Source of the DNA: a virus | Length of the DNA stretch: 31,137 nucleotides | IMG/VR virus record: IMGVR_UViG_3300011187_000036 | Coordinates: 1 to 31,137 of that record | Reading direction: 5' to 3' (one strand) | Part shown: piece after piece, positions 2,966-16,161 of the stretch | How the letters are laid out: every line of letters starts with the position of its first letter | How positions within the stretch are numbered: position 1 is the stretch's first letter | The notes under the pieces: generated by a model | Told to the model about the DNA's origin: nothing | The model's input: the letters and a program-made list of their open reading frames with translations, nothing else | The model's database searches: none | Program-made: the position numbers and the translations under genes

Positions 2966-3598
2966 ATGTCAGAGAATCTTTACGGGCCACATACAATAGA
3001 ACAAATACATGCATATGGAATTGATGTAGCAATGCGAGAAATTTATTTAGATGGTTCTGAACACTATGGTGATGAGGATGAACCGGGTGTTGAGTTTACA
3101 ATGACGAATCGGTTTATTCGTAATCTAAACATATTAACTAATATCAGTTTTGAACCAATTACTATACACATGAAAACATGTGGTGGTGATGTATCTGAAG
3201 GGATGGCGATATATGATGCCATTAAACAATGTCCATGTGTAACAACTATTATAAATTACACCCATGCGCGCTCGATGAGTTCTATGATTCTACAAGCGGC
3301 TGATGTTCGTATCATGATGCCACATTCAACATTTATGTTCCATATGGGTACAATGTTCATGGGTGGTACAGTTAAACAATTCAATACAGAGTACGTAGAA
3401 CTTCAAAAATCAAATGAACATATGTTTCAGATTTACATTGACCAGTTAAAAGAAACTGGAAGTATGAAACGTAAAACAATGGCACAGATTCGTAAATGGT
3501 TAATTGAACAGATGGATAAACACGAAGAAGTGTACCTATCTGCTGAAGAAGCGGTTAAAATTGGCTTTGCAGATGAAGTCTGGAATATCCGAGAATAA
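2966..3598 (+). CDS. ClpP-like serine protease (S14/crotonase fold)
   Basis: This 210-residue protein is close to bacterial ClpP in length. Visible family features are ITIHMKTCGGDVSEGMAIYDAI (oxyanion glycine region, residues 66-86), the nucleophile region HARSMSSMIL with S103, and the catalytic His in STFMFHMG (H126). A C-terminal SAEEAVKIGFADEV matches the conserved end of ClpP. The N-terminal extension has an acidic HYGDEDEPG insert. It could degrade host or phage proteins with the host ClpA/X ATPase, or act alone. The link to SsrA-tagged substrates of the phage tmRNA is tempting but inferred. GAGAG precedes the start. Confidence 0.85.
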   Translation: MSENLYGPHTIEQIHAYGIDVAMREIYLDGSEHYGDEDEPGVEFTMTNRFIRNLNILTNISFEPITIHMKTCGGDVSEGMAIYDAIKQCPCVTTIINYTHARSMSSMILQAADVRIMMPHSTFMFHMGTMFMGGTVKQFNTEYVELQKSNEHMFQIYIDQLKETGSMKRKTMAQIRKWLIEQMDKHEEVYLSAEEAVKIGFADEVWNIRE

Positions 3599-5556: not shown

Positions 5557-5631
5557 GCGGGGTTAGTTTCAATGGTAAAATGGTGGATTGCCAATTCGCA
5601 GTTAGGAGTTCAAATCTCCTACCCCGCACCA
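5557..5631 (+). tRNA. tRNA-Gly (GCC)
   Basis: Acceptor GCGGGGT/ACCCCGC, anticodon loop TTGCCAA, T arm GGAG-TTCAAAT-CTCC region, encoded CCA (5629-5631). Confidence 0.92.
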
Positions 5632-5647
5632 AATTTTAGATTATATT

Positions 5648-5893
5648 ATGTATTCAGAAATTATAGATGGTTATGTTTTAGACTGGAACTATAAGAAATA
5701 TCCACAATCAGAGTTGAATGGTTATGTTTTTCTTATTGGTGATATTCAATTGGGATATATATTCAAAAATAGGAATGGCTGGTGTGCTGTTTCAATATTT
5801 GAACATTACACTCTATGCCCTTTGGATGGATTTAAAACTCGGTTCCATGCTTCCAATTTCTTATTAAAATTATATAGAAATATGCAGGTATAG
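5648..5893 (+). CDS. Hypothetical protein (81 aa) overlapping a tRNA
   Basis: This open frame fills the space between two tRNA-Gly genes. Its last 10 bases, including the TAG stop, are the 5' end of the second tRNA. The ribosome site before ATG 5648 is weak. The product (GYVLDWNYKKYPQSELNGYVFLIGDIQLGYIF...) reads like a small beta-rich globular protein. No family recognised. tRNA processing would cut the message at its stop codon. Confidence 0.5.
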   Translation: MYSEIIDGYVLDWNYKKYPQSELNGYVFLIGDIQLGYIFKNRNGWCAVSIFEHYTLCPLDGFKTRFHASNFLLKLYRNMQV

Positions 5894-5957
5894 TATAATG
5901 GTATTATTGCAGCCTTCCAAGCTGACGATGTGAGTTCGATTCTCATTACCTGCTCCA
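5884..5957 (+). tRNA. tRNA-Gly (TCC)
   Basis: Acceptor GCAGGTA/TACCTGC, anticodon stem GCAGC/GCTGA, loop CTTCCAA, discriminator T, encoded CCA. Confidence 0.92.
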
Positions 5958-5963
5958 AATTCC

Positions 5964-6038
5964 GCTTCCATAGTTCAATTGGTAGAACGCTCGGCTGATA
6001 ACCGTGTAATGTAGGTTCAATTCCTACTGGAAGCACCA
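5964..6038 (+). tRNA. tRNA-Ile (GAT)
   Basis: Acceptor GCTTCCA/TGGAAGC, loop CTGATAA, discriminator A, encoded CCA. Confidence 0.93.
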
Positions 6039-6055
6039 TTTTTGTATTATATCCC

Positions 6056-6083
6056 TTGCATTTACGGCTCAGTGTGGTATAAT
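6056..6083 (+). promoter_or_regulatory. Sigma70-like promoter, TTGCAT family copy 3
   Basis: TTGCAT, 16-base spacer starting TTACGGCTCAGTGTGG, TATAAT. It is almost identical to copy 1 and precedes the HD hydrolase gene. Confidence 0.75.
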
Positions 6084-6113
6084 ATATGTATATTATGAAT
6101 TAAGAGGTAGATA

Positions 6114-6644
6114 ATGAACCGTTTGGCAAAGGCAATGAATTTCGCAACCAAGGCCCACGAAGGCGATAAGCGGAAGTTTAGTGGTGATGACTATATCACC
6201 CATCCCTTGAAAGTCGCTCTAATCGTATCAGCCTATACAAGTGATGTGGATACTATAATTGCTGCTGTTTTACATGATGTTGTAGAAGATACTGAGTATA
6301 CCTTTGATGACATTGAATATAAGTTTGGTGAAACTGTTAGAGATTTGACAGTTGGGATGACTAAAACATATAATGATTCAGATGACTATGAAACTAAGGT
6401 CGTTTCCGAACTGTTGAGGTTTAAAGAAATCTACGATGAACGAGTTCTGTTAATCAAGGTAGCTGATATTTTCGGTAATCTGAGTGATTATAAAAAAGCC
6501 CCTAAAAAATTCCTAAACAAATTCGTTGATAGTAAGAAACGATTAATGGGTGTTATTGTTAACAAGAGTGTTGTTGATAATGCCTTGGTTTCTGACACAT
6601 ATGCATTGATTGCTAAGATTGAAGCATATATAGCTGAAGTATAA
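6114..6644 (+). CDS. HD-domain (p)ppGpp hydrolase-like (small alarmone hydrolase)
   Basis: This 176-residue single HD domain resembles the hydrolase half of RelA/SpoT and stand-alone alarmone hydrolases. Visible motifs are ATKAHEGDKRKFSGDDYITHP (H30), LHDVVEDT (H54, D55, E58, D59), FG..V..L..GMTK, and KVADIFGNL (D118, N122). The metal ligands and the catalytic Glu-Asp pair are present, and there is no synthetase domain. The expected role is removal of ppGpp, blunting the host stringent response during infection. Nucleotide specificity is inferred. A strong TTGCAT-type promoter lies upstream, with AGAGGTAG before the ATG. Confidence 0.75.
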   Translation: MNRLAKAMNFATKAHEGDKRKFSGDDYITHPLKVALIVSAYTSDVDTIIAAVLHDVVEDTEYTFDDIEYKFGETVRDLTVGMTKTYNDSDDYETKVVSELLRFKEIYDERVLLIKVADIFGNLSDYKKAPKKFLNKFVDSKKRLMGVIVNKSVVDNALVSDTYALIAKIEAYIAEV

Positions 6645-6647
6645 ATA
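6640..6647 (+). promoter_or_regulatory. T4-type late promoter
   Basis: TATAAATA overlaps the stop codon of the HD hydrolase gene, 25 bases before the kinase-like gene at 6672. Confidence 0.6.
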
Positions 6648-6671
6648 TATACATAAACTTTGGAGTAAGTA

Positions 6672-7577
6672 ATGTATAACTTTTCAAAACATCTTAATGA
6701 GGGTATGTTATCCGAATCTGATTTGGAATTGATGAATGAAGTTGCCGTCCAATTTGGCGGCAAACGAGAAACACAATTTGGTCAGGTTGTAATCATGGCC
6801 GGTGGTGCGGGTTCAGGTAAAGGATTCGTTAAAGATAAATTACTTGATATTGACGGTAAAGTATTTGACGTTGATGCATTGAAAACAATGGCCATGAAAT
6901 CACCGTTAATCAATAAAAAGGTTAAAGAAGAATTTGGGGTTGAGTTGGATAAACTTGACTTGAAACAAGCTGAAGATGTGCGCAAACTACATGCTATTAT
7001 CAGTTCGGTTGGATTAGATAAAGGGCGTAAGAATGTTGCCGCCAAATCAATCATTGCTGTACCTAAGGATAGAAAACCGAATCTGATATTTGATGTAACA
7101 TTAAAAGATTTGAAAAAGATGGCAAGTATTAGTGGCTATGTTCAAGATTTGGGTTATGAAAAGATAAACATACATGTTGTATGGATATTAAACCAGATTG
7201 ATGTTGCTATCAAACAGAACAAAGACAGGCCACGTAGAGTACCAGAAGATATACTAATGGATACTCACAAACACGTTTCATATGCAATGAGAAATACCCT
7301 AAGTGGTGTGTCAAAACTGCGTTCATATATGGATGGTAAATTTATTATTATACCCAATCAGAAGGATGTAGATAATAAAGCAGTTGCGTCTGAATTACCA
7401 AAGGGCAACTTCTTCAAACGTGAAAAAGCAAGCAGTGGCTTCTATTTCGCAAAAGCGGATTATTACATTGTCAAGGAAAGGGGTAAAGCCTTCGTGGATA
7501 TGAAGAAGCTAGATAAGGAATTGATGCGAAAGATTAAAAAGTATGTACCAAATCCCGAAGTATGGGATAATGATTAA
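6672..7577 (+). CDS. P-loop kinase/ATPase, zeta-toxin-like
   Basis: This 301-residue protein has a Walker A motif in IMAGGAGSGKGFVKDKL (residues 44-51), followed by VFDVDALK, where the Asp pair lies where zeta-toxin-like and small-molecule kinases bind substrate. FDVTLKD (about 143-149) and WILNQIDVAIKQNKDRPRRVP add a likely Walker B/Asp and an arginine-rich lid. Substrate unknown. Such proteins phosphorylate nucleotides, sugars or RNA ends. ATG 6672 has GGAGTAAGT just upstream. A late promoter precedes it. Confidence 0.7.
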   Translation: MYNFSKHLNEGMLSESDLELMNEVAVQFGGKRETQFGQVVIMAGGAGSGKGFVKDKLLDIDGKVFDVDALKTMAMKSPLINKKVKEEFGVELDKLDLKQAEDVRKLHAIISSVGLDKGRKNVAAKSIIAVPKDRKPNLIFDVTLKDLKKMASISGYVQDLGYEKINIHVVWILNQIDVAIKQNKDRPRRVPEDILMDTHKHVSYAMRNTLSGVSKLRSYMDGKFIIIPNQKDVDNKAVASELPKGNFFKREKASSGFYFAKADYYIVKERGKAFVDMKKLDKELMRKIKKYVPNPEVWDND

Positions 7578-7586
7578 TAGGTTTAA

Positions 7587-7664
7587 CGCGGGTTGGTGTA
7601 GTCAGGTCAACATACAGGGTTCATAACCCAGTGAACGTAGGTTCAAATCCTACACCCGCTACCA
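7587..7664 (+). tRNA. tRNA-fMet-like initiator (CAT)
   Basis: The anticodon loop is TTCATAA, closed by three G-C pairs (GGG/CCC) as in initiator tRNAs. Position 1 (C, 7587) faces T72, so the first acceptor pair is not formed, another initiator hallmark (C1 x A72 in E. coli). The rest of the acceptor is GCGGGT/ACCCGC. CCA is encoded at 7662-7664. Confidence 0.85.
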
Positions 7665-7667
7665 TTT

Positions 7668-7760
7668 TACAATGAAATCGGTAAAAAATCGGCTGAAGGT
7701 ATAGGTTATTATTTCAATGATGAACGTGTAGTGGAGGGGAATCCAGATGAAGTGTCCTGA
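7668..7760 (+). pseudogene. C-terminal gene remnant after the initiator tRNA
   Basis: This frame is open from the 3' end of the tRNA to a TGA at 7758-7760. It encodes protein-like YNEIGKKSAEGIGYYFNDER... without a start codon. It overlaps the start of the next gene. I read it as the tail of a gene whose 5' part was replaced by the tRNA. Confidence 0.35.
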
Positions 7761-8121
7761 AGATATTGCAAAACACTTTCCTGAAAAATGGAAGTGTTGT
7801 GGTGAACCACAATTCTATATCAAAGAAGGTTGGTTAAAACCTATTCTGGAATGTCATGAAAAGTTAAAGGCGTTAAGCCCTAAATATGAAATTCATCAAG
7901 TTAAAGAAAAATTTGGTGGCCTTCGATATTATATTGATTATAATACAGGTGATGAGTTTACTCGCAAAGCTATGAATGAAGTTATAGCCGAAGCTGAAGA
8001 AAAATGTGCAACTGCATGTGAAGTTTGTGGTGAACTTGGTCAACCTGTTATTGTCAATAAAAGATATATAACAACTGTATGTGATGAACATAGACCTGAA
8101 GGTAGTGTTATATACAAATGA
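7747..8121 (+). CDS. Conserved phage protein, cysteine-rich (124 aa)
   Basis: Start ATG 7747 follows GGAGGGGA. The N-terminal KWKCCGEPQFYIKEGW, the central VKEKFGGLRYYID and the C-terminal CATACEVCGELGQP...TTVCDEH form a pattern I associate with a widespread but uncharacterised phage protein. The CxxC plus C/H residues suggest a zinc-knuckle. A role in host takeover is only a guess. The gene is squeezed between tRNAs. Confidence 0.65.
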   Translation: MKCPEDIAKHFPEKWKCCGEPQFYIKEGWLKPILECHEKLKALSPKYEIHQVKEKFGGLRYYIDYNTGDEFTRKAMNEVIAEAEEKCATACEVCGELGQPVIVNKRYITTVCDEHRPEGSVIYK

Positions 8122-8125
8122 TTAA

Positions 8126-8199
8126 TGTGGAATGGTGTAACGGCAACACACTACCCTCATAAGGTAGAATTACAGGCTCGGTTCCTGTTTCCACAACCA
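8126..8199 (+). tRNA. tRNA with CAT anticodon (elongator Met or Ile2)
   Basis: Acceptor TGTGGAA/TTCCACA, anticodon stem CTACC/GGTAG, loop CTCATAA, encoded CCA. Whether C34 is changed to lysidine (Ile, AUA) or left as Met cannot be told from sequence. Confidence 0.88.
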
Positions 8200-8204
8200 A
8201 TGTT

Positions 8205-8543
8205 ATGAAAGCAAAATTTTACATATATCGAAATCTACACACAGGTGGATTTTCAATAAAACATCATGGTATAGTTATTGACCATGTACAAGCGTTTATT
8301 GCGCATGATGTTGAGTTGAAAGTAAATGTTGGTGGAAAGAAACGTGCGGTAGAATCTAAAACCAGAAATGTTCATGCATACTTGGTTTGTGATTACTACC
8401 ATGAAACAGAAAGGGTTGTAAATGGTGATGAAATCACGTATAATCCATTCAACGATAACTCATTTGTTATGTGTGAAAGCAGAAAACCAATTTACCATGC
8501 AGATTGTATGTTTGGTAAAGATGGAAAAGTATATATAGTTTAA
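8205..8543 (+). CDS. Hypothetical protein (112 aa)
   Basis: Start ATG 8205 lies 5 bases after the tRNA CCA. MKAKFYIYRNLHTGGFSIKH... is followed by a beta-rich stretch (VELKVNVGGKKRAVESKTRNVHAYLVCDY) resembling a family of small phage proteins of unknown function. It ends 1 base before the tRNA-Ala gene, so the message must be cut from the tRNA precursor. Confidence 0.6.
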   Translation: MKAKFYIYRNLHTGGFSIKHHGIVIDHVQAFIAHDVELKVNVGGKKRAVESKTRNVHAYLVCDYYHETERVVNGDEITYNPFNDNSFVMCESRKPIYHADCMFGKDGKVYIV

Positions 8544-8544
8544 T

Positions 8545-8621
8545 GGGCCATTGGTGTTAATGGGAACATGCCGCCCTTGCAAGGCGTGAGATATGGGTTC
8601 GAATCCCATATGTGTCCACCA
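8545..8621 (+). tRNA. tRNA-Ala (TGC) with a bulged acceptor stem
   Basis: The anticodon loop is CTTGCAA. The acceptor pairs G1-C, G2-C, G3-T, C4-G, then C5-G, A6-T, T7-A only if T8613 is bulged out of the 3' strand. The G3:U70 pair that marks alanine tRNAs is present. CCA is encoded at 8619-8621. Confidence 0.82.
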
Positions 8622-8678
8622 AATTCAGATACACGCTTATGCGTATATTATTTATTTTAAAATAAATTGCAAAATAGC

Positions 8679-8707
8679 TTGACAACTTGTATATATACAA
8701 GTAGAAT
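8679..8707 (+). promoter_or_regulatory. TTGACA promoter with palindromic spacer
   Basis: TTGACA (8679-8684), 17-base spacer, TAGAAT (8702-8707). The spacer is a perfect 18-base palindrome (ACTTGTATATATACAAGT, 8685-8702), placed like a repressor operator. Confidence 0.75.
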
Positions 8708-8747
8708 TACTAAAAATCAATTAACAATGACTTATAAGGTAACTACA

Positions 8748-8798
8748 ATGAAACGAAATTTAAATACAAAACTCGCGGGTGTAACCACACGATTGTAA
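8748..8798 (+). CDS. Putative 16-residue leader peptide
   Basis: ATG 8748 follows TAAGGT and encodes MKRNLNTKLAGVTTRL. It is the first frame after the strong promoter at 8679. Its end forms the 5' arm of a long hairpin (8777-8821) ahead of tRNA-Lys. This arrangement is like an attenuator leader. Confidence 0.4.
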   Translation: MKRNLNTKLAGVTTRL

Positions 8799-8821
8799 TT
8801 TAAGTTCGTTGTGTTGCACCC
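8777..8821 (+). promoter_or_regulatory. Long hairpin ahead of tRNA-Lys
   Basis: GGGTGTAA pairs with TTGCACCC (one G-T), then CACA/TGTG and CGA/TCG with single-base bulges. There is no T-run after it, so it is not a simple terminator. It could be a processing or attenuation structure. Confidence 0.5.
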
Positions 8822-8832
8822 AAAAAGAATAT

Positions 8833-8908
8833 GGGGGTGTAACTCAGCGGTCAGAGTAGTGAGCTTTTAACTCATTCGTCGAAGGTTCGAATCCTTCTAC
8901 CCCCACCA
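8833..8908 (+). tRNA. tRNA-Lys (TTT)
   Basis: Acceptor GGGGGTG/TACCCCC, loop CTTTTAA, T arm GAAGG-TTCGAAT-CCTTC, encoded CCA. Confidence 0.92.
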
Positions 8909-8912
8909 AATT

Positions 8913-8970
8913 AAAGATGTAAACTGCAATCTCAAAAACTCAATATTTAAATTGACCTAATTGCATCTTG
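8913..8970 (+). ncRNA. Repeated structured leader motif, copy 1
   Basis: Outer helix AAGATGT/GCATCTT and inner hairpin TCAAT-ATTTAA-ATTGA, with conserved single-stranded AACTGCAAT and ACCTA. It ends 18 bases before ATG 8989. Related copies lie at 10653-10714 and 13925-13984. Confidence 0.6.
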
Positions 8971-8988
8971 ACTAAAGGGGATACTCTA

Positions 8989-9109
8989 ATGAAGAATCCA
9001 GTTGCTAAACATTCACGTAAATTTAATCGTGCGGTTGTTATGCGAAACAAAAAAAACAGATTATTCCCGTAAAGGAAAATCCAAGTGGAAACTTGAGAAA
9101 CATTCATAA
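8989..9109 (+). pseudogene. Small basic protein gene split at an A8 run (DUF7230-like)
   Basis: ATG 8989 follows AAAGGGGA. The first frame encodes MKNPVAKHSRKFNRAVVMRNKK and stops at 9070-9072. Removing one A from the run of eight (9049-9056) instead gives KTDYSRKGKSKWKLEKHS and a stop at 9107-9109. The joined sequence looks like a family of very small basic phage proteins starting MKNPVAKH..KFN, function unknown. Either the gene is broken or polymerase/ribosome slippage on the A-run restores the frame. Confidence 0.65.
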
Positions 9110-9129
9110 ATATTCCCGTAAAGGAAAAT
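9062..9129 (+). repeat. 19-base direct repeat
   Basis: TATTCCCGTAAAGGAAAAT occurs at 9062-9080 and again at 9111-9129. The second copy follows the end of the small basic gene and carries no obvious gene, so it is probably a partial tandem duplication. Confidence 0.7.
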
Positions 9130-9151
9130 ATAACCTTATGGTTATGATATT

Positions 9152-9226
9152 GCTGCTATGGTATAATTGGGAACACACTGGTTTTGTAATCCAGAGTTCA
9201 GGGTTCGATTCCTTGTGGCAGCACCA
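9152..9226 (+). tRNA. tRNA-Thr (TGT)
   Basis: Acceptor GCTGCTA/TGGCAGC, anticodon TGT in loop TTTGTAA, with a T-T mismatch closing the anticodon stem. Encoded CCA. Confidence 0.85.
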
Positions 9227-9244
9227 AATTTTAGTGATTATTAT

Positions 9245-9333
9245 TCCCTTGTACTCTAATGGTAAGAGGAAGCACTGTTAATGCTTTGTATTCCTGAAAA
9301 GGTATGTTGGTTCGAATCCAGCCGAGGGAGCCA
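9245..9333 (+). tRNA. tRNA-Asn (GTT) with long variable arm
   Basis: Acceptor TCCCTTG/CGAGGGA and discriminator G match Asn tRNAs, and the loop is CTGTTAA. Between anticodon stem (AAGCA/TGCTT) and T stem (GTTGG/CCAGC) lie about 19 bases that can fold (TTCC...GG), a class II style arm not expected in tRNA-Asn. Total 89 bases including CCA. Confidence 0.85.
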
Positions 9334-9379
9334 AATAGAAGTGGAGTGACCACCACCTAAAAAACGGGCCAAGTTTAAT

Positions 9380-9456
9380 GCACCCGTAGCGCAATTGGTA
9401 GAGGCACAAGTTTTAGGTACTTGACAGTGTGAGTTCGAATCTCATCGGGTGTACCA
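9380..9456 (+). tRNA. tRNA with Leu anticodon TAG, short variable loop
   Basis: Anticodon stem CAAGT/ACTTG, loop TTTAGGT (TAG, G37). Acceptor GCACCCG/CGGGTGT has G1-T72. The variable region is only 5 bases (ACAGT), whereas leucine tRNAs are normally class II. Discriminator A, encoded CCA. Confidence 0.85.
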
Positions 9457-9473
9457 AATTATAAAGGTGATAT

Positions 9474-9506
9474 ATGTTTCTAAAATGGTGGTATGACGAT
9501 ATGTAA
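9474..9506 (+). CDS. Putative 10-residue micro-ORF
   Basis: AAAGGTGAT precedes an ATG encoding MFLKWWYDDM and a stop, 23 bases before the next gene's ATG. The strong ribosome site and the paired Trp suggest a leader peptide. It may be chance. Confidence 0.3.
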   Translation: MFLKWWYDDM

Positions 9507-9529
9507 GTATTCTAAAAAGGAGAACTTAT

Positions 9530-9838
9530 ATGTCACGCACATACAGAAAACGTGGAGAAACATTCAATGAATATTATCGTGATTGGATAGATGACATTGA
9601 AAACGGCCTTGCCTTAGAATGGCAAGTAAAGTATATTACCAAAGAGAAATATCGGTACAATACACGTACCGTGAAACATTACGATTTCGGTTTACCTAAG
9701 TCATTCAGAAATATGATAAACCGTCAACGTAGAGCAAAAGATAAGCAGGAAATATGGAAGGCAATAAACCTTCATGATTATCCTGAACAGTGTTCCAAGT
9801 GGAATTGTAAAGATGCAAATCATTGGAAATACTGGTAG
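9530..9838 (+). CDS. Basic hypothetical protein (102 aa)
   Basis: A strong AAAAGGAG site precedes ATG 9530. MSRTYRKRGETFNEYYRDW... is rich in Arg, Lys, Tyr and Trp, with the basic core FRNMINRQRRAKDKQEIW, suggesting nucleic-acid or ribosome contact. It resembles the start of many small phage proteins (MSRxYRK) of unknown role. It ends 6 bases before a tRNA-Leu gene. Confidence 0.6.
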   Translation: MSRTYRKRGETFNEYYRDWIDDIENGLALEWQVKYITKEKYRYNTRTVKHYDFGLPKSFRNMINRQRRAKDKQEIWKAINLHDYPEQCSKWNCKDANHWKYW

Positions 9839-9844
9839 AACAAT

Positions 9845-9923
9845 GCGCCTGTATGCTAATCTTGGTAAAGCAACCATGCTTAAAACGTGGTGAGTGTGAG
9901 TTCGAGTCTCACTGGGCGTACCA
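9845..9923 (+). tRNA. tRNA with Leu anticodon TAA, short variable loop
   Basis: Anticodon stem CCATG/CGTGG, loop CTTAAAA. Acceptor GCGCCTG/TGGGCGT has G1-T72 and other wobble pairs. Variable region 5 bases (TGAGT), again not the class II form normal for Leu. Encoded CCA. Confidence 0.83.
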
Positions 9924-9937
9924 AATTAAAGTATAAT

Positions 9938-10014
9938 GCGGCTGTAGTCTAATTGGATAGGCACTGGATTACGAATCCAGCGATATGTAGGTTCAAATCC
10001 TACCAGCCGTGCCA
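9938..10014 (+). tRNA. tRNA-Arg (ACG)
   Basis: Acceptor GCGGCTG/CAGCCGT with G1-T72, anticodon stem CTGGA/TCCAG, loop TTACGAA, discriminator G, encoded CCA. Confidence 0.92.
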
Positions 10015-10022
10015 AATTAAAG

Positions 10023-10049
10023 TTGACAGAATTATGTCGTTGGTATACT
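10023..10049 (+). promoter_or_regulatory. TTGACA promoter ahead of structured leader
   Basis: TTGACA (10023-10028), a short 15-base spacer, TATACT (10044-10049). The expected transcript starts near 10056, just before the folded leader. Confidence 0.55.
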
Positions 10050-10059
10050 ATACCAGAAC

Positions 10060-10193
10060 GTTGTTAGTTACAGATAGGTAAGTAAACTGTAATGTCACCT
10101 ACTACTGGTGAACCTAACAACCTAGATGACAACAGGGTGCTGAAAGTTGTCACTAGAAGGTTGCACCCTCAAAATTCAATCAAACCTGAAGGT
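10060..10193 (+). ncRNA. Structured 5' leader, riboswitch-like
   Basis: P1 GTTGTTAG/CTAACAAC (10060-10067/10114-10121) encloses P2 TTACAG/CTGTAA (10068-10073/10087-10092) and P3 TCACC/GGTGA (10095-10099/10107-10111). Downstream, TGACAAC/GTTGTCA (10127-10133/10146-10152) and AGGGTGC/GCACCCT (10134-10140/10163-10169) interleave, so they form either a pseudoknot or alternative stems. AACC-TGAA-GGTT (10184-10193) covers the ribosome site of the gene at 10200. Confidence 0.6.
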
Positions 10194-10199
10194 TATATT

Positions 10200-10619
10200 A
10201 TGAGCAATCCGAAAGACCAAGAACTTAAAAACCTGATTAATCAAATAATCGGTGATGTACCAACTACAAATACAACTGAAGAAGTTTCTAGTCAGGAATT
10301 ATTTGATGTGATACAATCGGTTATCAATGGGATGGGTGGTCAAGTTGTAAGCCCTGAAGAAATGTTTGCGTGTGGTGGGTGTGATGAATGTTCTATGCAG
10401 GATGTTTGCCCTAAATATACAGAGATGGGTGAAGAAAACTTCCCTGAAGCGGCTGAAACTATTCAAGCTAAACGAAGCACAGCTGTAATCTCAGGTACAT
10501 TTGAAATCGGATTTGACGCACCTACTGAAGCAGATATTCATAATACGATTTCAGCATTATACGAAGATTCACAAATTGATTTTGTGGTTAATAAAATCCA
10601 AACAACTTCTGAATTTTAA
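10200..10619 (+). CDS. Hypothetical protein with CxxC cluster (139 aa)
   Basis: ATG 10200 follows GAAGG. An upstream in-frame start at 10092 lies inside the structured leader and is rejected. The product has an acidic N-terminal half, a Cys-rich centre (FACGGCDECSMQDVCPKY) that could bind metal, and a C-terminal strand-helix segment (AVISGTFEIGFDAPTEADIHN). No family recognised. A folded 140-base leader suggests regulated expression. Confidence 0.6.
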   Translation: MSNPKDQELKNLINQIIGDVPTTNTTEEVSSQELFDVIQSVINGMGGQVVSPEEMFACGGCDECSMQDVCPKYTEMGEENFPEAAETIQAKRSTAVISGTFEIGFDAPTEADIHNTISALYEDSQIDFVVNKIQTTSEF

Positions 10620-10652
10620 ACAAACACTGCCAGTGTTGTATTAACTCAGTTT

Positions 10653-10714
10653 AAAGATACTAACAGCAATTACAAGCACTTGACTTTTAATCAACCTAGC
10701 TAAAATGTATCTTG
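10653..10714 (+). ncRNA. Repeated structured leader motif, copy 3 (divergent)
   Basis: Outer helix AAGATAC/GTATCTT and inner hairpin TTGA-CTTTTAA-TCAA. Relative to copy 1, paired bases change together (G-C to A-T in the outer helix, C-G to T-A and A-T to G-C in the inner), while GCAAT and ACCTA persist. It ends 21 bases before ATG 10736. Confidence 0.6.
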
Positions 10715-10735
10715 TTTGTTTGATTGGTGAAAAAT

Positions 10736-10933
10736 ATGAATGATGAAAATAAAGTGAAAGAAGGTGCTATACTTGACCTTGAACCAATGAAGGCGTATAC
10801 AGAAGCCGGTGTTGTTGGTGAATCTAAGTGCCAACTTGATAATGAATTTGGTGCATTAGTAGGATTTAAAAATGTAATAATTATATATATTGTTATTGCT
10901 ATAATCGGATTATGGGTGTATACTCTTTTCTGA
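10736..10933 (+). CDS. Small C-tail-anchored membrane protein (65 aa)
   Basis: ATG 10736 follows GGTGA. Residues 1-45 are hydrophilic. The C-terminus (FKNVIIIYIVIAIIGLWVYTLF) is one clear membrane segment ending at the stop codon. Orientation is probably N-in. It might act on the host inner membrane, but there is no family match and no evidence for a holin role. It is preceded by leader motif copy 3 and followed by the tmRNA. Confidence 0.6.
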   Translation: MNDENKVKEGAILDLEPMKAYTEAGVVGESKCQLDNEFGALVGFKNVIIIYIVIAIIGLWVYTLF

Positions 10934-10944
10934 TAAAGAATATT

Positions 10945-11250
10945 ATCATATGAAGTAGAAGGTAGGTAGCCTTGGACGCGGGTTCGAGTCCCGCCATCTC
11001 CACCAAAAGCACACTGACCCTGACGAGGGGTTCTGAGAAGCGTAAACAGGAATTCATGGCCTTAGTAACGGTGAGAACATAGTGTGCTTCTGATGGGGGT
11101 GATACGGTTTCGACAAGGTACTGAGAACACACTGATGGTACGTGAAAGCAACTGCACGTAAAATATCGAAGAAATTAAATATAACTGCAAACGATGAGAG
11201 TTATACGCCTGTTGCTCAAGCTGCTTAAATGTAGTCGAGTTAACTGAGTT
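10945..11250 (+). ncRNA. ssrA: Circularly permuted two-piece tmRNA
   Basis: The acceptor piece comes first: ...CCTTGGACGCGGG, T arm GCGGG-TTCGAGT-CCCGC (10978-10994), acceptor strand CATCTCC (10995-11001), A, encoded CCA (11003-11005). An intervening segment follows, closed by AAGCACACT/AGTGTGCTT (11007-11015/11081-11089). The coding piece begins GGGGGTG (11095-11101), which pairs with CATCTCC. Next come ATACGGTTTCGACAAGG, helix TACGTG/CACGTA, the tag frame 11187-11228 (ANDESYTPVAQAA, stop) and a P5-like hairpin GCTGC/GTAGT holding the stop codon. CAAGG/CCTTG can join the two pieces. Outer ends are approximate. Confidence 0.9.
11187..11228 (+). other. tmRNA tag-peptide reading frame
   Basis: Resume codon GCA, then AAC GAT GAG AGT TAT ACG CCT GTT GCT CAA GCT GCT TAA, giving ANDESYTPVAQAA. 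The AND start is standard. The end is AQAA rather than the usual LAA or VAA. Confidence 0.9.
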
Positions 11251-11257
11251 TTTCTTT

Positions 11258-11298
11258 ATGGGGTTTTCTTGCAAACAGAATAAACCCCATTTCTTTTT
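11258..11298 (+). terminator. Terminator after tmRNA
   Basis: ATGGGGTTT (11258-11266) pairs with AAACCCCAT (11282-11290), followed by TTCTTTTT. Confidence 0.8.
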
Positions 11299-11334
11299 AA
11301 TGCTTGTGTTGGTCGATTGACAAAAACACAACCA

Positions 11335-11505
11335 ATGAGAGCTAATAACTCAATGTTGGCTACAAGAAAAATTGGCAGGGCGCACCAAAATGTATTGACT
11401 TTTATAAAAGGTAACGTTAAGGTAGCAGCAACTAAACTCAATGAACTTGGTGACATGAGGATTTATCATGAAAAGAAACCAAATTCATTAGATGCCTTTT
11501 TTTAA
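11335..11505 (+). CDS. Doubtful small ORF (56 aa)
   Basis: This frame is open after the tmRNA terminator. The sequence (MRANNSMLATRKIGRAHQN...) is basic and protein-like in its second half (KVAATKLNELGDMRIYHEKK). No good ribosome site is seen. The region also folds (CCAATGAG against CTCA...TTGG), so it may be part of an RNA instead. Confidence 0.3.
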   Translation: MRANNSMLATRKIGRAHQNVLTFIKGNVKVAATKLNELGDMRIYHEKKPNSLDAFF

Positions 11506-11565
11506 ACCCATTGAAGTACATATAACAATTAATTTCAAATATTTTTATTTTTTTACAAAAAACGT

Positions 11566-11593
11566 TTGACAAGTTGTATATATACTGTATAGT
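11566..11593 (+). promoter_or_regulatory. TTGACA promoter, same family as 8679
   Basis: TTGACA, 16-base spacer, TATAGT. The spacer shares TTGTATATATAC with the 8679 promoter but lacks the full palindrome. Confidence 0.7.
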
Positions 11594-11644
11594 ATTAAGA
11601 AGTCGTCAATAACAGGCGCATATAAATTAATTAGGATTAAAACA

Positions 11645-11752
11645 ATGTTTACATTTTGTAACTATCAACCAGAACCGTCATTTAGCGTGGAATCTCATGA
11701 ATGGGATACTATGGGTTTTGATATTGCAATTGGTGGAGGTTCGAGTAACTAA
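11645..11752 (+). CDS. Small acidic protein (35 aa)
   Basis: This single-gene unit has a promoter at 11566, TTAGGA before ATG 11645 and a strong terminator at 11779. The product (MFTFCNYQPEPSFSVESHEW..., ending AIGGGSSN) is acidic and soluble, with no known motif. The complete signals make it likely to be expressed in spite of its size. Confidence 0.6.
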   Translation: MFTFCNYQPEPSFSVESHEWDTMGFDIAIGGGSSN

Positions 11753-11778
11753 CCCCCAAGTAAACAAAAGCAACATCA

Positions 11779-11812
11779 AAACCCGCTAAGAGAAATCGAA
11801 GCGGGTTTTTTT
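11779..11812 (+). terminator. Rho-independent terminator
   Basis: AAACCCGCT pairs with AGCGGGTTT, followed by a run of T, after the 35-residue gene. Confidence 0.9.
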
Positions 11813-11826
11813 ATGAGTAGAATAAT

Positions 11827-11903
11827 GGTGAGTATAGCTTAACTGGTAAAGCCACTGATTGTGAATCAGTTAGATGCGAGTTCAATCCTCGTTATTCACC
11901 CCA
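11827..11903 (+). tRNA. tRNA-His (GTG)
   Basis: Extra G at -1 faces C73, the histidine identity pair. Acceptor GTGAGTA/TATTCAC, loop TTGTGAA, encoded CCA. Confidence 0.94.
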
Positions 11904-11958
11904 ATTTTAAATAGGCCGATGAGCCGTGTTAATTAATAATTTGGTTTTTGTTTTCTGT

Positions 11959-12032
11959 TGCCCTTTGGTGTAATGATAGCACAAAGGTTTTACATACCTT
12001 TAGCGATAGTTTGATTCTATCAAGGGCAACCA
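11959..12032 (+). tRNA. tRNA-Val (TAC)
   Basis: Acceptor TGCCCTT/AAGGGCA, anticodon stem AAGGT/ACCTT, loop TTTACAT. The T loop is TTTGATT, with T in place of the usual C56. Encoded CCA. Confidence 0.88.
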
Positions 12033-12036
12033 ATAT

Positions 12037-12111
12037 CTGGATGTGATGTTAACGGTAGCATACCGCGTTTGGGGCGCGGTTGTGAGGGTTCAAATCCTTC
12101 TATCCAGACCA
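12037..12111 (+). tRNA. tRNA-Pro (TGG)
   Basis: Acceptor CTGGATG/TATCCAG with the C1-G72 pair typical of Pro, anticodon stem CCGCG/CGCGG, loop TTTGGGG, encoded CCA. Confidence 0.93.
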
Positions 12112-12113
12112 AT

Positions 12114-12188
12114 ACTCCCGTAGTTTAACGGTTAGAACACCTGACTTTCAATCAGTAGAAGCGAGTTCGATTCTCGTCGGGAGTACCA
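12114..12188 (+). tRNA. tRNA-Glu (TTC)
   Basis: Acceptor ACTCCCG/CGGGAGT, loop CTTTCAA, T arm GCGAG-TTCGATT-CTCGT, encoded CCA. Two bases after tRNA-Pro. Confidence 0.92.
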
Positions 12189-12201
12189 ATTTTATATTTT
12201 G

Positions 12202-12226
12202 GCTTATAAATCAATAACTTATAAGC
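12202..12226 (+). other. Hairpin after tRNA-Glu
   Basis: GCTTATAA pairs perfectly with TTATAAGC around a 9-base loop. No T-run follows. It may protect the 3' end of the tRNA precursor. Confidence 0.45.
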
Positions 12227-12248
12227 GGGAATAATTATCGTAAATAAC

Positions 12249-12276
12249 TTGCATTTACGGACAAGTCCTGTATAAT
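12249..12276 (+). promoter_or_regulatory. Sigma70-like promoter, TTGCAT family copy 4
   Basis: TTGCAT, 16-base spacer starting TTACGG, TATAAT. It drives the SprT-like gene. Confidence 0.75.
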
Positions 12277-12309
12277 TACTTATATAGAGTAATTAATGAG
12301 GATTTATTG

Positions 12310-12819
12310 ATGGATTTAACAAGAGCAAGAGTAGTCGCCCTAACTGAAATGAACAAATGGGGATTAGTTAATGATGGTTGGAATTTTAAATACAACAGTC
12401 GTAAACGTGCCTTGGGTGTATGTAAATACACCACTAAAGAAATTCAATTATCACGTGTCATTACTGAACATGCAGATGACGATAAGGTACTTGATACCAT
12501 TCGCCACGAAATTGCACATGCCCTTGCAGGTAGCGCAGCGAATCATGGCCCTGAATGGAAACGTTGGGCACGAACAGTAGGTTGTAACCCATCACGTAGC
12601 GGTGAAGTTAATAAAGAAACACGTGAAGTGTTGAACACTAAAATTAAGTATGTTATGGTTTGCCCGAAGGGTTTGATTGTTAATACATATTACCGTAAAC
12701 CAAATAGTAATACCTTAATCAACCTTGACCAATATTATGTAAAAGGTCGTAAAACTGAAACGAAAGGTAAACTTGAAATTGTTGCCTATAACCCTTCTGT
12801 TCATGTAGTGAGAGCGTAA
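12310..12819 (+). CDS. SprT-like zinc metalloprotease
   Basis: This 169-residue protein has the SprT/Spartan core: N-terminal helix with KWGL..GW.FKYNSRKRALGVC, then IRHEIAHALAG with HExxH (H66, E67, H70) and the third zinc ligand in NHGPEWK (H79). A Cys pair downstream (GC at 91-92, VCPKG) is a reduced form of the family's zinc ribbon. Relatives cut DNA-bound or DNA-crosslinked proteins, and a phage copy might clear host proteins from DNA. ATG 12310 follows GAGGA. The next gene begins 2 bases after its stop. Confidence 0.85.
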   Translation: MDLTRARVVALTEMNKWGLVNDGWNFKYNSRKRALGVCKYTTKEIQLSRVITEHADDDKVLDTIRHEIAHALAGSAANHGPEWKRWARTVGCNPSRSGEVNKETREVLNTKIKYVMVCPKGLIVNTYYRKPNSNTLINLDQYYVKGRKTETKGKLEIVAYNPSVHVVRA

Positions 12820-12821
12820 TC

Positions 12822-13085
12822 ATGTATAAACTGAACGCGAATGATGGTTATAAAGAAAAGAACCAAGAATTACTTGAGTGGTTAGAGAGTAAAGGTTGGA
12901 AGATTGATAACTTTGGTCATGCCACTAAAGAAAAAAGTAACGGTAAAAAATACCGTTATAAATTTCAGGCAATATCAATCCGGTATGAGGTTCAAGTTAG
13001 ACACGAAGCTACACAATATAGCAATGCTATAAATGAATGGATTCGTGTTAAAACACTTTCATATAAAACAGTAAAGGTGAAGTAA
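12822..13085 (+). CDS. Basic hypothetical protein (87 aa)
   Basis: It directly follows the SprT-like gene and is presumably its operon partner. Rich in Lys, Arg, Tyr and Trp (LLEWLESKGWKIDNFGHATKEK..., KKYRYKFQAISIRYEVQVRHEA). The layout suggests a small DNA- or RNA-binding domain, but I recognise no family. Confidence 0.6.
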   Translation: MYKLNANDGYKEKNQELLEWLESKGWKIDNFGHATKEKSNGKKYRYKFQAISIRYEVQVRHEATQYSNAINEWIRVKTLSYKTVKVK

Positions 13086-13139
13086 TAGCTAAACTAACAT
13101 TAGCCTTGTTAAAGAATTAATCAAGGAATAAAAGAATTA

Positions 13140-13221
13140 GGATGTACACGTTATTGGTGAAACGTAGCGGCTGTAACCCGTGGCTTAGGCTCTGGTGGTT
13201 CAAATCCATCTACATCCACCA
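13140..13221 (+). tRNA. tRNA-Tyr (GTA)
   Basis: Acceptor GGATGTA/TACATCC, loop CTGTAAC, long variable arm (class II, normal for Tyr), T arm GGTGG-TTCAAAT-CCATC, encoded CCA. Confidence 0.9.
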
Positions 13222-13238
13222 AATTAGGAAATTGCATT

Positions 13239-13415
13239 ATGAGTATATTTGACTATCACCATGATAATCCGCCAGCACCTTTTAATCCATCGTCTGACCC
13301 ACGGGCTAAAGGTTGGTATAATGAAACAAGTAACTCAATGGAAGATGATAATTTTTATGACTCACATACACGTGAAGAATGTAAAGCTGAATGGAAAAGA
13401 AGATACGAAAAATAA
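13239..13415 (+). CDS. Small hypothetical protein (58 aa)
   Basis: TTAGGA precedes ATG 13239. The sequence is proline-rich at the start (MSIFDYHHDNPPAPFNPSSD) with a charged C-terminal helix (REECKAEWKRRYEK). It fills the gap between tRNA-Tyr and tRNA-Asp and ends 5 bases before the latter. Function unknown. Confidence 0.55.
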   Translation: MSIFDYHHDNPPAPFNPSSDPRAKGWYNETSNSMEDDNFYDSHTREECKAEWKRRYEK

Positions 13416-13420
13416 AAAAT

Positions 13421-13495
13421 GGCTCATTGGTATAGTGGCAATTACGCTGGTCTGTCTAACCGGAAAGAGGGGTTCGATTCCCCTATGAGTCGCCA
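13421..13495 (+). tRNA. tRNA-Asp (GTC)
   Basis: Acceptor GGCTCAT/ATGAGTC, anticodon stem CTGGT/ACCGG, loop CTGTCTA, discriminator G, encoded CCA. Confidence 0.93.
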
Positions 13496-13501
13496 AATTA
13501 T

Positions 13502-13576
13502 CACGGATAGTTTAAATGTAAAGCACTTCCCATATGGGGGAAGAATTGTGAGGTTTAATTCCTCACTCCGTGACCA
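13502..13576 (+). tRNA. Irregular tRNA-like gene, isotype uncertain
   Basis: Acceptor CACGGA/TCCGTG with one base missing or mismatched at pair 7-66. D stem GTTT/AAGC, T stem TGAGG/CCTCA with loop TTTAATT, encoded CCA. The anticodon arm TTCCC-ATATGGG-GGGAA would give anticodon ATG (His codon CAU). A shifted stem CTTCC/GGAAG leaves an 8-base loop. It lacks the His G-1:C73 pair. It may be a decayed or unusual tRNA. Confidence 0.6.
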
Positions 13577-13596
13577 TATTTTATATAGGTGATATT

Positions 13597-13806
13597 ATGG
13601 ATAACCAAAGTGAATTAAATATCCAAAAAATATGCAATGCATATAATCTTGGATATGAAGATGGATTCATCTCATCATCATATATTAATCCCTTTAAGGG
13701 AAACGCATATAGATTTGAAGCGTATGCATTAGGATATACAGAAGGATTGACTAACCGTGTACCCAATGAATCGTTACCTTCTATGTTACGTAAACAAGCA
13801 GAATAA
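13597..13806 (+). CDS. Small hypothetical protein (69 aa) ending inside tRNA-Phe
   Basis: ATG 13597 follows ATAGGTGAT. The product has a repeated short pattern (AYNLGYEDGF..., AYALGYTEGL), as if two copies of a small helix-turn pair. The last three codons (GCA GAA TAA) are the 5' end of the tRNA-Phe gene. Function unknown. Confidence 0.6.
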   Translation: MDNQSELNIQKICNAYNLGYEDGFISSSYINPFKGNAYRFEAYALGYTEGLTNRVPNESLPSMLRKQAE

Positions 13807-13873
13807 GCTAATCTGGTGAAAGCGTTCGGTTGAAGCCCGAAAGAGGTAGGTTCGAAACCTACATTCCGCACCA
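13798..13873 (+). tRNA. tRNA-Phe (GAA)
   Basis: Acceptor GCAGAAT/ATTCCGC with an A3-C70 mismatch, anticodon stem TTCGG/CCGAA, loop TTGAAGC, encoded CCA. The 5' end overlaps a coding region by 9 bases. Confidence 0.88.
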
Positions 13874-13881
13874 AAATTTAA

Positions 13882-13909
13882 TTGACATGAGATAATATTC
13901 ATGTACAAT
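13882..13909 (+). promoter_or_regulatory. TTGACA promoter with inverted repeat in spacer
   Basis: TTGACA, 16-base spacer, TACAAT. ACATGA (13885-13890) and TCATGT (13899-13904) form an inverted repeat, parallel to the palindrome in the 8679 promoter. Confidence 0.55.
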
Positions 13910-13924
13910 AACTAGAAATAAATT

Positions 13925-13984
13925 AAAGATGTAAACTGCAATCTCAAAAACTCAATATTTTAAATTGACCTAAATTGCATCTTG
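13925..13984 (+). ncRNA. Repeated structured leader motif, copy 2
   Basis: Nearly identical to copy 1 (two single-base insertions, both in loops or joints). Outer helix AAGATG/CATCTT, inner hairpin TCAAT/ATTGA. It ends 37 bases before ATG 14022. Confidence 0.6.
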
Positions 13985-14021
13985 TTATTATAATAATAAA
14001 AATAATAAAAAAGAGTAGTCG

Positions 14022-14492
14022 ATGCCTCATTATAATTTTAATAAAGATTTACCTATTGCTGAACGTACTGAAAATCAAATGGCTGAGTTCCTATGTAGTA
14101 AATTAGATGGGATGCAGTTTATTGAACATTGCAACAACTCAGATTATGATTTGAAATTTAATGTTCGTAATCGTTTTGAATGTACAGTTGAAGTTAAAGA
14201 AGATTTTACATGTAAGAAAACCGGAAATATCGGTGTTGAAACTGAATCATGGGGTAGGCGTTCAGGCATAGCGGTTTCAAAAGCAGATTATTATCTATAT
14301 AAAGTACACAGCCCTGATAATAAAATCGGTGTGTATATTATAGAAACTGACAAGTTAAAGAAAATGATTAAAAACAAACTTTGGCACAGAGAAGTTATTG
14401 GTGGTGATGTTGGTAGTAATTCAAAAAACTATCTGTTCAGATTACCAATAGTTGAAGAAGAATTTATGTTTTTAGGTTACGTCAATGAGTAA
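14022..14492 (+). CDS. Putative PD-(D/E)XK nuclease (156 aa)
   Basis: After an N-terminal helix (AERTENQMAEFLCSKL), SDYDLKFNV (D43) and CTVEVKEDF (E57, K59) give the D...ExK pattern of restriction-endonuclease-like folds, followed by an ADYYLYKVH strand typical of such domains. It may cut host DNA or act as a mobile endonuclease, but the target is unknown. It lies behind a promoter and leader motif copy 2. The next tiny frame starts within its last codons. Confidence 0.55.
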   Translation: MPHYNFNKDLPIAERTENQMAEFLCSKLDGMQFIEHCNNSDYDLKFNVRNRFECTVEVKEDFTCKKTGNIGVETESWGRRSGIAVSKADYYLYKVHSPDNKIGVYIIETDKLKKMIKNKLWHREVIGGDVGSNSKNYLFRLPIVEEEFMFLGYVNE

Positions 14493-14614
14493 AAAGAAAA
14501 ATATATGGCATTGGATTTAATTCTGGTGGTAAATATAAATCAAAGGTAGGTAGTAAACACCAAGTTTTAGTAGACCGCTTAGTTGAAATAGGTGAAGAAT
14601 TTTTAAAAGAATAA
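14485..14614 (+). pseudogene. Small gene split after a start in an A-rich stretch
   Basis: ATG 14485 overlaps the end of the previous gene and reads MSKKKNIWHWI before a stop. Removing one A from the A-rich start gives MSKKKIYGIGFNSGGKYKSK..., then HQVLVDRLVEIGEEFLKE, and a stop at 14612-14614, one base before tRNA-Ser. The shifted frame is clearly more protein-like. Broken gene or frame restored by slippage. Function unknown. Confidence 0.5.
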
Positions 14615-14615
14615 A

Positions 14616-14717
14616 GGTAGAGTAAGCCGAAAGATTCAGGGTAACGGCTGCTGTCTTGAAAACAGTTAATCACGTTAGTAGCGTGGTGTGTGGGTTCGAA
14701 TCCCACTTCTACCACCA
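14616..14717 (+). tRNA. tRNA-Ser (TGA)
   Basis: Acceptor GGTAGAG/TTCTACC, loop CTTGAAA, long class II variable arm (CACG/CGTG), discriminator A, encoded CCA. Confidence 0.9.
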
Positions 14718-14795
14718 ATCGCGCGGCGGGGATATGCCTGTAAGTCGCATGAATAAATAGAACCATATAATAATAATAACAATAAGGTTAGTAAT

Positions 14796-15242
14796 TTGGC
14801 ATATCAGATAAAGAGCAATAACACTGCTGATTTATCTCAATATTTGGTTGTACAGGATTTAATTAAAAAAGGTTGGGTGGTTTTATTTCCATCTTCAAGG
14901 GATACAGTTTATGATTTGGTTATAGAAAAAATAACCAGTAATGGTAACAGAGTATTTAAAACCTTTCAGATTAAAACATTGAAAAATAATTCATTTAAAA
15001 CCAATAATAGAGGTTCATCAAAAGGTAAAGAGCGTACAAGTATTAATGGGAACATTCGTTATAGTTATAGTTACGCAGATGAAAAGATAGATTGGATGGT
15101 TGGTGTTAATCATGAAACAGGGGAAATTTATTATTACCCCTTAAGTGTATATAAACACTATGATAACATCAATGTCAATCAAGTGAAGTCAAAAGAGTTT
15201 GAAATTAATGATGGAATGGTGAATAAAAGAAAACGTAAATAA
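14796..15242 (+). CDS. Putative PD-(D/E)XK / Holliday-nuclease-like protein (148 aa)
   Basis: The start is TTG 14796 behind AAGG. AAIA-type spacing of strands: VVQDLIKKGWVVLFPSSRDTVYDLVIEK (D40) then KTFQIKTLK (Q58, K60), the (D)...(E/Q)xK arrangement seen in archaeal-resolvase-like and restriction-like folds. A Gly/Ser-rich loop and a basic C-terminus follow (NKRKRK). Together with the 14022 gene it brackets tRNA-Ser. Activity and target are not established. Confidence 0.5.
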   Translation: MAYQIKSNNTADLSQYLVVQDLIKKGWVVLFPSSRDTVYDLVIEKITSNGNRVFKTFQIKTLKNNSFKTNNRGSSKGKERTSINGNIRYSYSYADEKIDWMVGVNHETGEIYYYPLSVYKHYDNINVNQVKSKEFEINDGMVNKRKRK

Positions 15243-15248
15243 AATAAT

Positions 15249-15323
15249 GGGGGATTAGTGTTAACGGTAACACGGCGGTTTCCAACTCCGCAACTATGGG
15301 TTCGAATCCTTTATCCCCTGCCA
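15249..15323 (+). tRNA. tRNA-Trp (CCA)
   Basis: Acceptor GGGGGAT/ATCCCCT with G1-T72, anticodon loop TTCCAAC with a T-T pair closing the stem, discriminator G, encoded CCA. Confidence 0.87.
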
Positions 15324-15341
15324 AATTAAGTTTTATTTCGA

Positions 15342-15418
15342 GTACATATGCCTGAGTGGTCTAAAGGTGCGGATTGCAAACTCGTTATTCGTGGGTTCGA
15401 ATCCCACTATGTACTCCA
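15342..15418 (+). tRNA. tRNA-Cys (GCA)
   Basis: Acceptor GTACATA/TATGTAC, loop TTGCAAA, discriminator T as required for Cys, encoded CCA. The last anticodon-stem pair is A-C. Confidence 0.88.
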
Positions 15419-15432
15419 AATAAAATTTCTAT

Positions 15433-15506
15433 TGCCCGTTAGTGTAACGGTAACACACGTGACTTTGAATCACGTATCATAAGTTCAAATCTTGTACGGG
15501 CTGCCA
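15433..15506 (+). tRNA. tRNA-Gln (TTG)
   Basis: Anticodon stem CGTGA/TCACG, loop CTTTGAA. Acceptor GCCCGT/ACGGGC with an open T1-T72 first pair, discriminator G, encoded CCA. Confidence 0.88.
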
Positions 15507-15525
15507 AATTAAAGTGAGAGTAATT

Positions 15526-15750
15526 ATGGATTTAGAGTCGTTTAATCATTACATTGTGTTTTACACAACCGTAAATCTTGAAAACACTTTACAGCATCTA
15601 ATTGGGTTTAATGTTAAGCCTGATATTAATGATACATATGATGCTTTGATTGAGTTTCAAACAGAGGTTCTACCTAAACTTGAAATTGAAGAACCTGTTT
15701 TTATGATTTACATGAACGCTCAAGGTGTTCGTGACATTTTTGGGTTTTAA
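15526..15750 (+). CDS. Small acidic hypothetical protein (74 aa)
   Basis: ATG 15526 follows GAGAG. The sequence (MDLESFNHYIVFYTTVNLEN..., EVLPKLEIEEPVFMIYMNAQGV) is acidic, with two predicted helices and a central strand. No family recognised. It lies between tRNA-Gln and the broken 15765 gene. Confidence 0.5.
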   Translation: MDLESFNHYIVFYTTVNLENTLQHLIGFNVKPDINDTYDALIEFQTEVLPKLEIEEPVFMIYMNAQGVRDIFGF

Positions 15751-15764
15751 TAGAGGAATAGATT

Positions 15765-16074
15765 ATGTATTTAGAAATATCACCTAGACAAACAGGTAAA
15801 ACAATCAGGGTATCCAATATTCTTAGCTGAAGATGGTTATTATGTAGGCACTGCTAAGAAAACCCGTACCGTTGACGATTTACTTAATCATGCAATGGGT
15901 AAACCTGATATACTATTCGATTTACTAAGAATGAATGATGGAAAACATGTAACATATTCTGTTACAAATTTCTTAGAGAATATGACTTTGAAACAGATTC
16001 GTGAAATGAGAAAACAAGTTCCCGAAGAATATGCAAATTTAGAATACGGAAACCAATATGTAAAAACATGGTAG
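15765..16074 (+). pseudogene. Frame-shifted small gene with P-loop-like start
   Basis: GAGGAATAG precedes ATG 15765. The first frame reads MYLEISPRQTGKTIR and stops after 21 residues. A +1 frame opening near 15799 continues with strong protein character (SGYPIFLAEDGYYVGTAKK..., LLNHAMGKPDILFDLL..., MTLKQIREMRKQVPEEY) to a TAG at 16072-16074 inside tRNA-Ser. Deleting one A from TAAAAC joins them. RQTGKT resembles a Walker A core but the rest does not look like an ATPase, so a fusion of remnants is also possible. Confidence 0.5.
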
Positions 16075-16161
16075 GTTGGCTGAGTGGTCGAAAGCAGCGG
16101 GTTGCTAACCCGTACATTCTGAAATATGGGTGCGAAGGTTCGAATCCTTCACCTACCGCCA
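16070..16161 (+). tRNA. tRNA-Ser (GCT)
   Basis: Acceptor GGTAGGT/ACCTACC, anticodon stem GCGGG/CCCGT, loop TTGCTAA, long variable arm, discriminator G, encoded CCA. Confidence 0.93.

Follow-up and report, generated by a model that had tools for sequence, protein, structure and literature searches.

The viral DNA analyzed here comes from a T4-like phage that carries a real and intact circularly permuted tmRNA gene that is unexceptional within its class and very probably functional. The gene lies at 10944–11298 on the + strand of the window (the whole 31,137-nt stretch) and, as an earlier note made from the letters alone had claimed, its normal 3′ half is upstream of its normal 5′ half. ARAGORN called a permuted tmRNA at 10911–11319 with the tag ANDESYTPVAQAA, and made no permuted call in 300 random windows (first-order Markov sequences built on the window's own dinucleotide frequencies). 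In the covariance searches that the note had proposed, RF04321 (tmRNA_permuted, Rfam) matched 10944–11228 at 105.4 bits (E = 7.8e-20, cut-off 47), and the standard one-piece model RF00023 gave 30 bits, below its cut-off of 47. The order of the halves, a G3:U70 pair with CCA, and a tag frame accompany this score, and the gene belongs to the RF04321 family. It passed only one of the three subtype models, RF01849 alpha_tmRNA (62.8 bits, cut-off 50); RF01850 beta_tmRNA (57.9 bits, cut-off 84) and the RF01851 cyano tmRNA model (31.9 bits, cut-off 70) scored below threshold. When 20 phage loci were scanned together, the window gene had the lowest RF04321 score, and all 19 loci outside the window's species, Moby included, passed the beta model.

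Organization of the gene and its surroundings

The acceptor piece, or normal 3′ half (10944–11005, + strand; RF04321 alignment and ARAGORN), comprises the 3′ strand of P2, the T arm, the 3′ strand of the acceptor stem, and CCA. The P2 strand GTAGCCTT (10966–10973, +; sequence and RF04321-marked pairs) pairs with AAGGTAC (11115–11121) of the coding piece, leaving one bulged G. The T arm, GCGGG TTCGAGT CCCGC (10978–10994, +; sequence and RF04321 alignment), is followed by the acceptor segment read from the sequence (10995–11005, +), which consists of CATCTCC (10995–11001), the discriminator A11002, and an encoded CCA (11003–11005). The two halves do pair as GGGGGTG/CATCTCC, 11095–11101 with 10995–11001, and the positions first proposed for the end of CCA (11005) and the start of the 5′ half (near 11095, here G11095) hold in the sequence. 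The third acceptor pair is G11097:U10999, that is, G3:U70, the alanine identity pair for AlaRS.

A transcribed spacer of 89 nt (11006–11094, +), with a fold of -24.5 kcal/mol and covariation in 83 phage relatives, leads to the coding piece, or normal 5′ half (11095–11256, +; RF04321 alignment to 11228, then fold). This piece contains the acceptor 5′ strand GGGGGTG, the P2 5′ strand, the PK1 region, the tag, and a P5-like hairpin, and its 3′ end would fall at 11256. The tag frame (11187–11228, +; ARAGORN) runs from GCA to TAA, and its resume codon GCA, its stop codon, and the -AA end of the peptide are all intact. The stop codon sits in the loop of the P5-like hairpin (11211–11244, +; fold); past the tag, the fold contains only this hairpin and that of a terminator, hence the description of the RNA as minimal is fair. 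The likely intrinsic terminator (11258–11298, +; fold) consists of a ATGGGGTTTT/TAAACCCCAT hairpin (11258–11290) with TTCTTTTT directly after it. A pattern scanner for terminators did not list 11258–11298; the scanner accepts loops of up to 8, and this one exceeds that. A scan of the window found no promoter above chance.

The setting agrees with the note on two further points. The T4-like character of the phage is supported by gp32 (~50% identical to cyanophage gp32), by gp53 (~34–36% identical to gp53 of Stenotrophomonas, Pelagibacter, and Synechococcus phages), and by the tail tube; tail tube and baseplate hub families were both matched in the window. The gene also lies within a tRNA array, between tRNA-Arg and tRNA-His on the + strand and among 23 tRNA genes for all 20 amino acids (5557–16161, all +; ARAGORN and RF00005). 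A 65-bp near-identical repeat (~97%) occurs in this array at 8908–8970 and 13920–13984; one copy begins where tRNA-Lys ends, the other 47 bases past tRNA-Phe. In or near the array there are also an RlaP-like RNA-repair nucleotidyltransferase, an HD_4 hydrolase, and a weak zeta-toxin match (902–1936, 6114–6644, 6672–7577). A second IMG/VR contig, 99.9% identical over 20 kb and with an identical tmRNA, represents the same species and is therefore silent on selection. No riboswitch in the window reached the Rfam threshold.

A gene for a ClpP-like serine protease (2966–3598; PF00574, 84.7 bits) lies 7.3 kb upstream of the tmRNA and also matches phrog head maturation protease families. ClpP-like genes were present in 14 of 25 IMG/VR tmRNA contigs. 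A link between this gene and tmRNA was considered and set aside, as a ClpP-like gene occurred in 2/11 isolates with a permuted tmRNA versus 1/8 without, which shows no association.

A covarying helix and a UGAU linker precede the coding piece

The intervening segment had been described as closed by a 9-base helix. This helix, AAGCACACT/AGTGTGCTT, pairs 11007–11015 with 11081–11089 and is lengthened by one G-U pair (to 11007–11016/11080–11089); a UGAU linker (11091–11094) then precedes the mature 5′ G11095. In a thinned set of 83 phage relatives, the bases just after CCA likewise pair with a stretch that stops precisely 4 nt short of the mature 5′ G. With this 4-nt linker, the first ten positions were paired in 90% of cells on average, versus 62% when partners were shuffled among sequences, and helix registers slid from this position gave 36–54%. 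Pairing at 12 of 12 helix positions exceeded that in every one of the 500 shuffles, and single positions showed as many as six pair types; the sequences are related, and these shuffle counts are not probabilities. The spacer was left free in the search pattern, so the covariation of the helix was not built in; the first four acceptor pairs were fixed by that pattern, and their invariance is not counted as evidence. The linker is conserved as well (T in 79, G in 72, A in 73, and T in 78 of the 83), and its UGA is present in all 12 of the bacterial beta-type genes that were fetched. We infer that the helix and the UGAU linker form a signal that would place an RNase P cut between U11094 and G11095, a precise and testable signal for precursor processing. 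Phage spacers of ~19–37 nt and of 60–90 nt (>100 nt in some isolates) mostly have the same closing hairpin.

Proposed function

Several lines of evidence argue for a functional phage-borne two-piece tmRNA gene, a reading that we hold with high confidence: the RF04321 score together with a permuted ARAGORN call that includes an intact tag, the covarying spacer helix and UGAU linker in the 83 phage relatives, its grouping with phage genes as nearest kin, and the several isolate phages that keep a permuted tmRNA beside tRNAs. Against it stand the lowest RF04321 score of the 20 phage loci, the passing of the alpha subtype model only, and the want of a promoter above chance. In the mechanism that we propose, acceptor stem and spacer helix would join into a single long hairpin in the folded transcript of the tRNA array, interrupted by an internal loop ACCAA/CUGAU. 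RNase P would cut at U11094/G11095 and so generate the coding piece's 5′ end, while a 3′ processing step would open up the spacer and shorten it as far as the encoded CCA (11005). Both mature RNAs would then be held together by the acceptor stem and P2, and could be charged with alanine via G3:U70. SmpB was sought as a phage-encoded protein and found in none of 20 tmRNA phage records (the window and 19 others, most >140 kb); host SmpB would therefore serve. Stalled ribosomes would be freed and ANDESYTPVAQAA, which ends in -AA, added for proteolysis. The predicted benefit to the phage is that the tmRNA probably supports translation in infected cells alongside the phage tRNA set.

The lack of a phage SmpB would also suit an RNA that acts as a decoy or modulator, binding SmpB, AlaRS, or the ribosome to block host trans-translation. 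Mycobacteriophage DS6A has been proposed to use its tRNA-like domain in this way, and a molecule with the tRNA-like domain only inhibits tmRNA (PMC4131195, PMC11915505). A decoy would not need a tag, however, and the tag frame keeps its GCA, stop codon, and -AA end both in the window gene and in most relatives, hence we regard this reading as very unlikely. Still less credible to us is a decayed passenger, i.e. a captured bacterial gene that is not expressed or not processed. A model score below those of the other phage relatives scanned and the lack of a clear promoter are what one might expect of such a gene, but it retains intact identity elements, an intact tag and spacer helix, and an intact terminator, and the helix is conserved across phages. 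A working two-piece tmRNA thus remains the reading that we prefer.

Permuted tmRNA genes in other phages

A permuted tmRNA in a T4-like phage had been thought unusual, a view that does not survive comparison. In a previous survey, 402 of 18,146 phage genomes had a tmRNA gene; 53 of 133 unique phage tmRNA genes were two-piece, and 50 of these 53 came from marine or aquatic samples (PMC9004378). The arrangement is also common in IMG/VR and is the same in Menderavirus. A strict DNA pattern (acceptor 3′ strand, CCA, 60–90 nt, acceptor 5′ strand) matched at least 119 IMG/VR stretches, nearly all of which ARAGORN called permuted tmRNA, and a second scan with a 16–46 nt spacer found 29 further viral stretches. 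The window gene is therefore one more example of a kind already known in phages.

Among 19 isolate phages, 11 had a permuted tmRNA above the cut-off, on varied hosts, a proportion that is not a prevalence because several isolates were picked for DNA resembling the window's T arm. The carriers are Stenotrophomonas phages DLP6 and Bhz51; Xanthomonas phages Rb1, X1, and XacN1 (two copies); Alcaligenes phage QDWS595; Acinetobacter phage BUCT628; Caulobacter phage CcrPW; Synechococcus phage BUCT-ZZ01; Pelagibacter phage HTVC008M; and Mosig. In several of them the gene lies beside tRNA genes. At both XacN1 loci and in BUCT-ZZ01, tRNAs with a CTA anticodon, possible amber suppressors, are close to the permuted tmRNA.

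With RF04321 two-piece tmRNAs in general, the window gene shares the order of the halves, the G3:U70 acceptor stem, CCA, the T arm, P2, and a tag; its spacer of 89 nt differs from those of the bacterial permuted genes read here, which are mostly 22–57 nt. The Stenotrophomonas Menderavirus phages Moby and Bhz51 are likewise T4-like, with a permuted gene between tRNA genes and a helix-closed spacer, but their tag is VAANDDSYTVRIAA and they pass the beta model (94.6 bits). The tmRNA genes of the mycobacteriophage Bxz1 group and of Bacillus phage G are one-piece genes in standard order. The window gene, which fails RF00023, differs from such one-piece phage genes. The likeness to the Bxz1 group and phage G is that a phage carries the tmRNA (PMC4131195). 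Methylophage Melnitz and pelagimyophages resemble the window's phage as T4-like myophages whose tmRNA gene is two-piece, and Melnitz differs by a glutamine riboswitch reported at its gene (PMC9004378).

Kinship and origin

We placed the window gene in a tree (139 rows, 174 columns), in which one extra row labelled alpha is a mislabelled one-piece gene. The gene scores above the RF01849 cut-off, yet its place in the tree is among phage genes: it belongs to a 97/95 set made up of 41 phage rows and 6 rows from Oxalobacteraceae, and the 20 genes of the alphaproteobacterial type cluster in a 100/100 clade. Its nearest phage gene shares 72% identity with it, and the closest bacterial row by identity, Herbaspirillum, is 59% identical. 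The pattern used to fetch the phage rows was derived from the window and so favours look-alikes, and AU tests rejected none of the constraints (window with alpha, p = 0.297; phage monophyly, p = 0.204; beta monophyly, p = 0.0845); kinship with phage genes is thus favoured by the tree, not proven.

A recent acquisition from an alphaproteobacterial host, by which the gene would mark such a host, could account for alpha_tmRNA being the only subtype model passed, and the joining of window and alpha rows was not rejected. We consider this origin unlikely, given the separate alphaproteobacterial clade, the position of the window gene among phage and Oxalobacteraceae rows (with the bias of the phage rows noted above), and Herbaspirillum as the closest bacterial row.

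Genes of Herbaspirillum and Stenotrophomonas sit close to phage genes but apart from one another, a placement that hints at uptake of permuted phage copies by bacteria. A broader possibility, which we put forward only tentatively, is that a pool of permuted tmRNA genes circulates across unrelated phages, some of them on one-piece hosts, and supplied bacteria such as Stenotrophomonas, Herbaspirillum, and perhaps even the 'beta' lineage with permuted, often second, copies, with the window gene as a deep branch. If so, the form of a phage tmRNA would carry no information on the host, and one could test where one of the permuted lineages came from; the idea deserves a proper tree. The window gene offers an entry to two questions, namely whether phages carry a ribosome rescue RNA of their own into hosts whose form differs, and whether the permuted gene spreads among bacteria by way of phages.

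The permuted form does not identify the host

The earlier note had further suggested that the gene might point to a two-piece host. This does not follow, and tmRNA form as a host marker is ruled out by the cases below. The permuted tmRNA gene of Synechococcus phage BUCT-ZZ01 scores 111.9 bits with RF04321, and the control genome of its host species, S. elongatus, had no RF04321 match above the cut-off. One of the 14 control genomes passed, presumably Caulobacter, which among these genomes is the known user of the two-piece form. The permuted cut-off was passed by 6 of 81 Stenotrophomonas genomes and missed by 75; the three carriers read at their other locus all hold a one-piece gene too, which rules out Stenotrophomonas as a native two-piece genus. 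The beta cut-off was passed by 4 of 150 Burkholderiales genomes. In a bacterial genome collection, the strict pattern gave 0 matches with a 60–90 nt spacer and 10 with 16–46 nt, counts that are not prevalences because the pattern misses alphaproteobacteria.

Second ssrA alleles in bacteria were noted earlier (PMC4131195). Here, permuted and one-piece tmRNA genes were seen in the same genome in Stenotrophomonas (three loci), Herbaspirillum (one), and Duganella (one), and the Herbaspirillum and Duganella tags end in GT, not AA.
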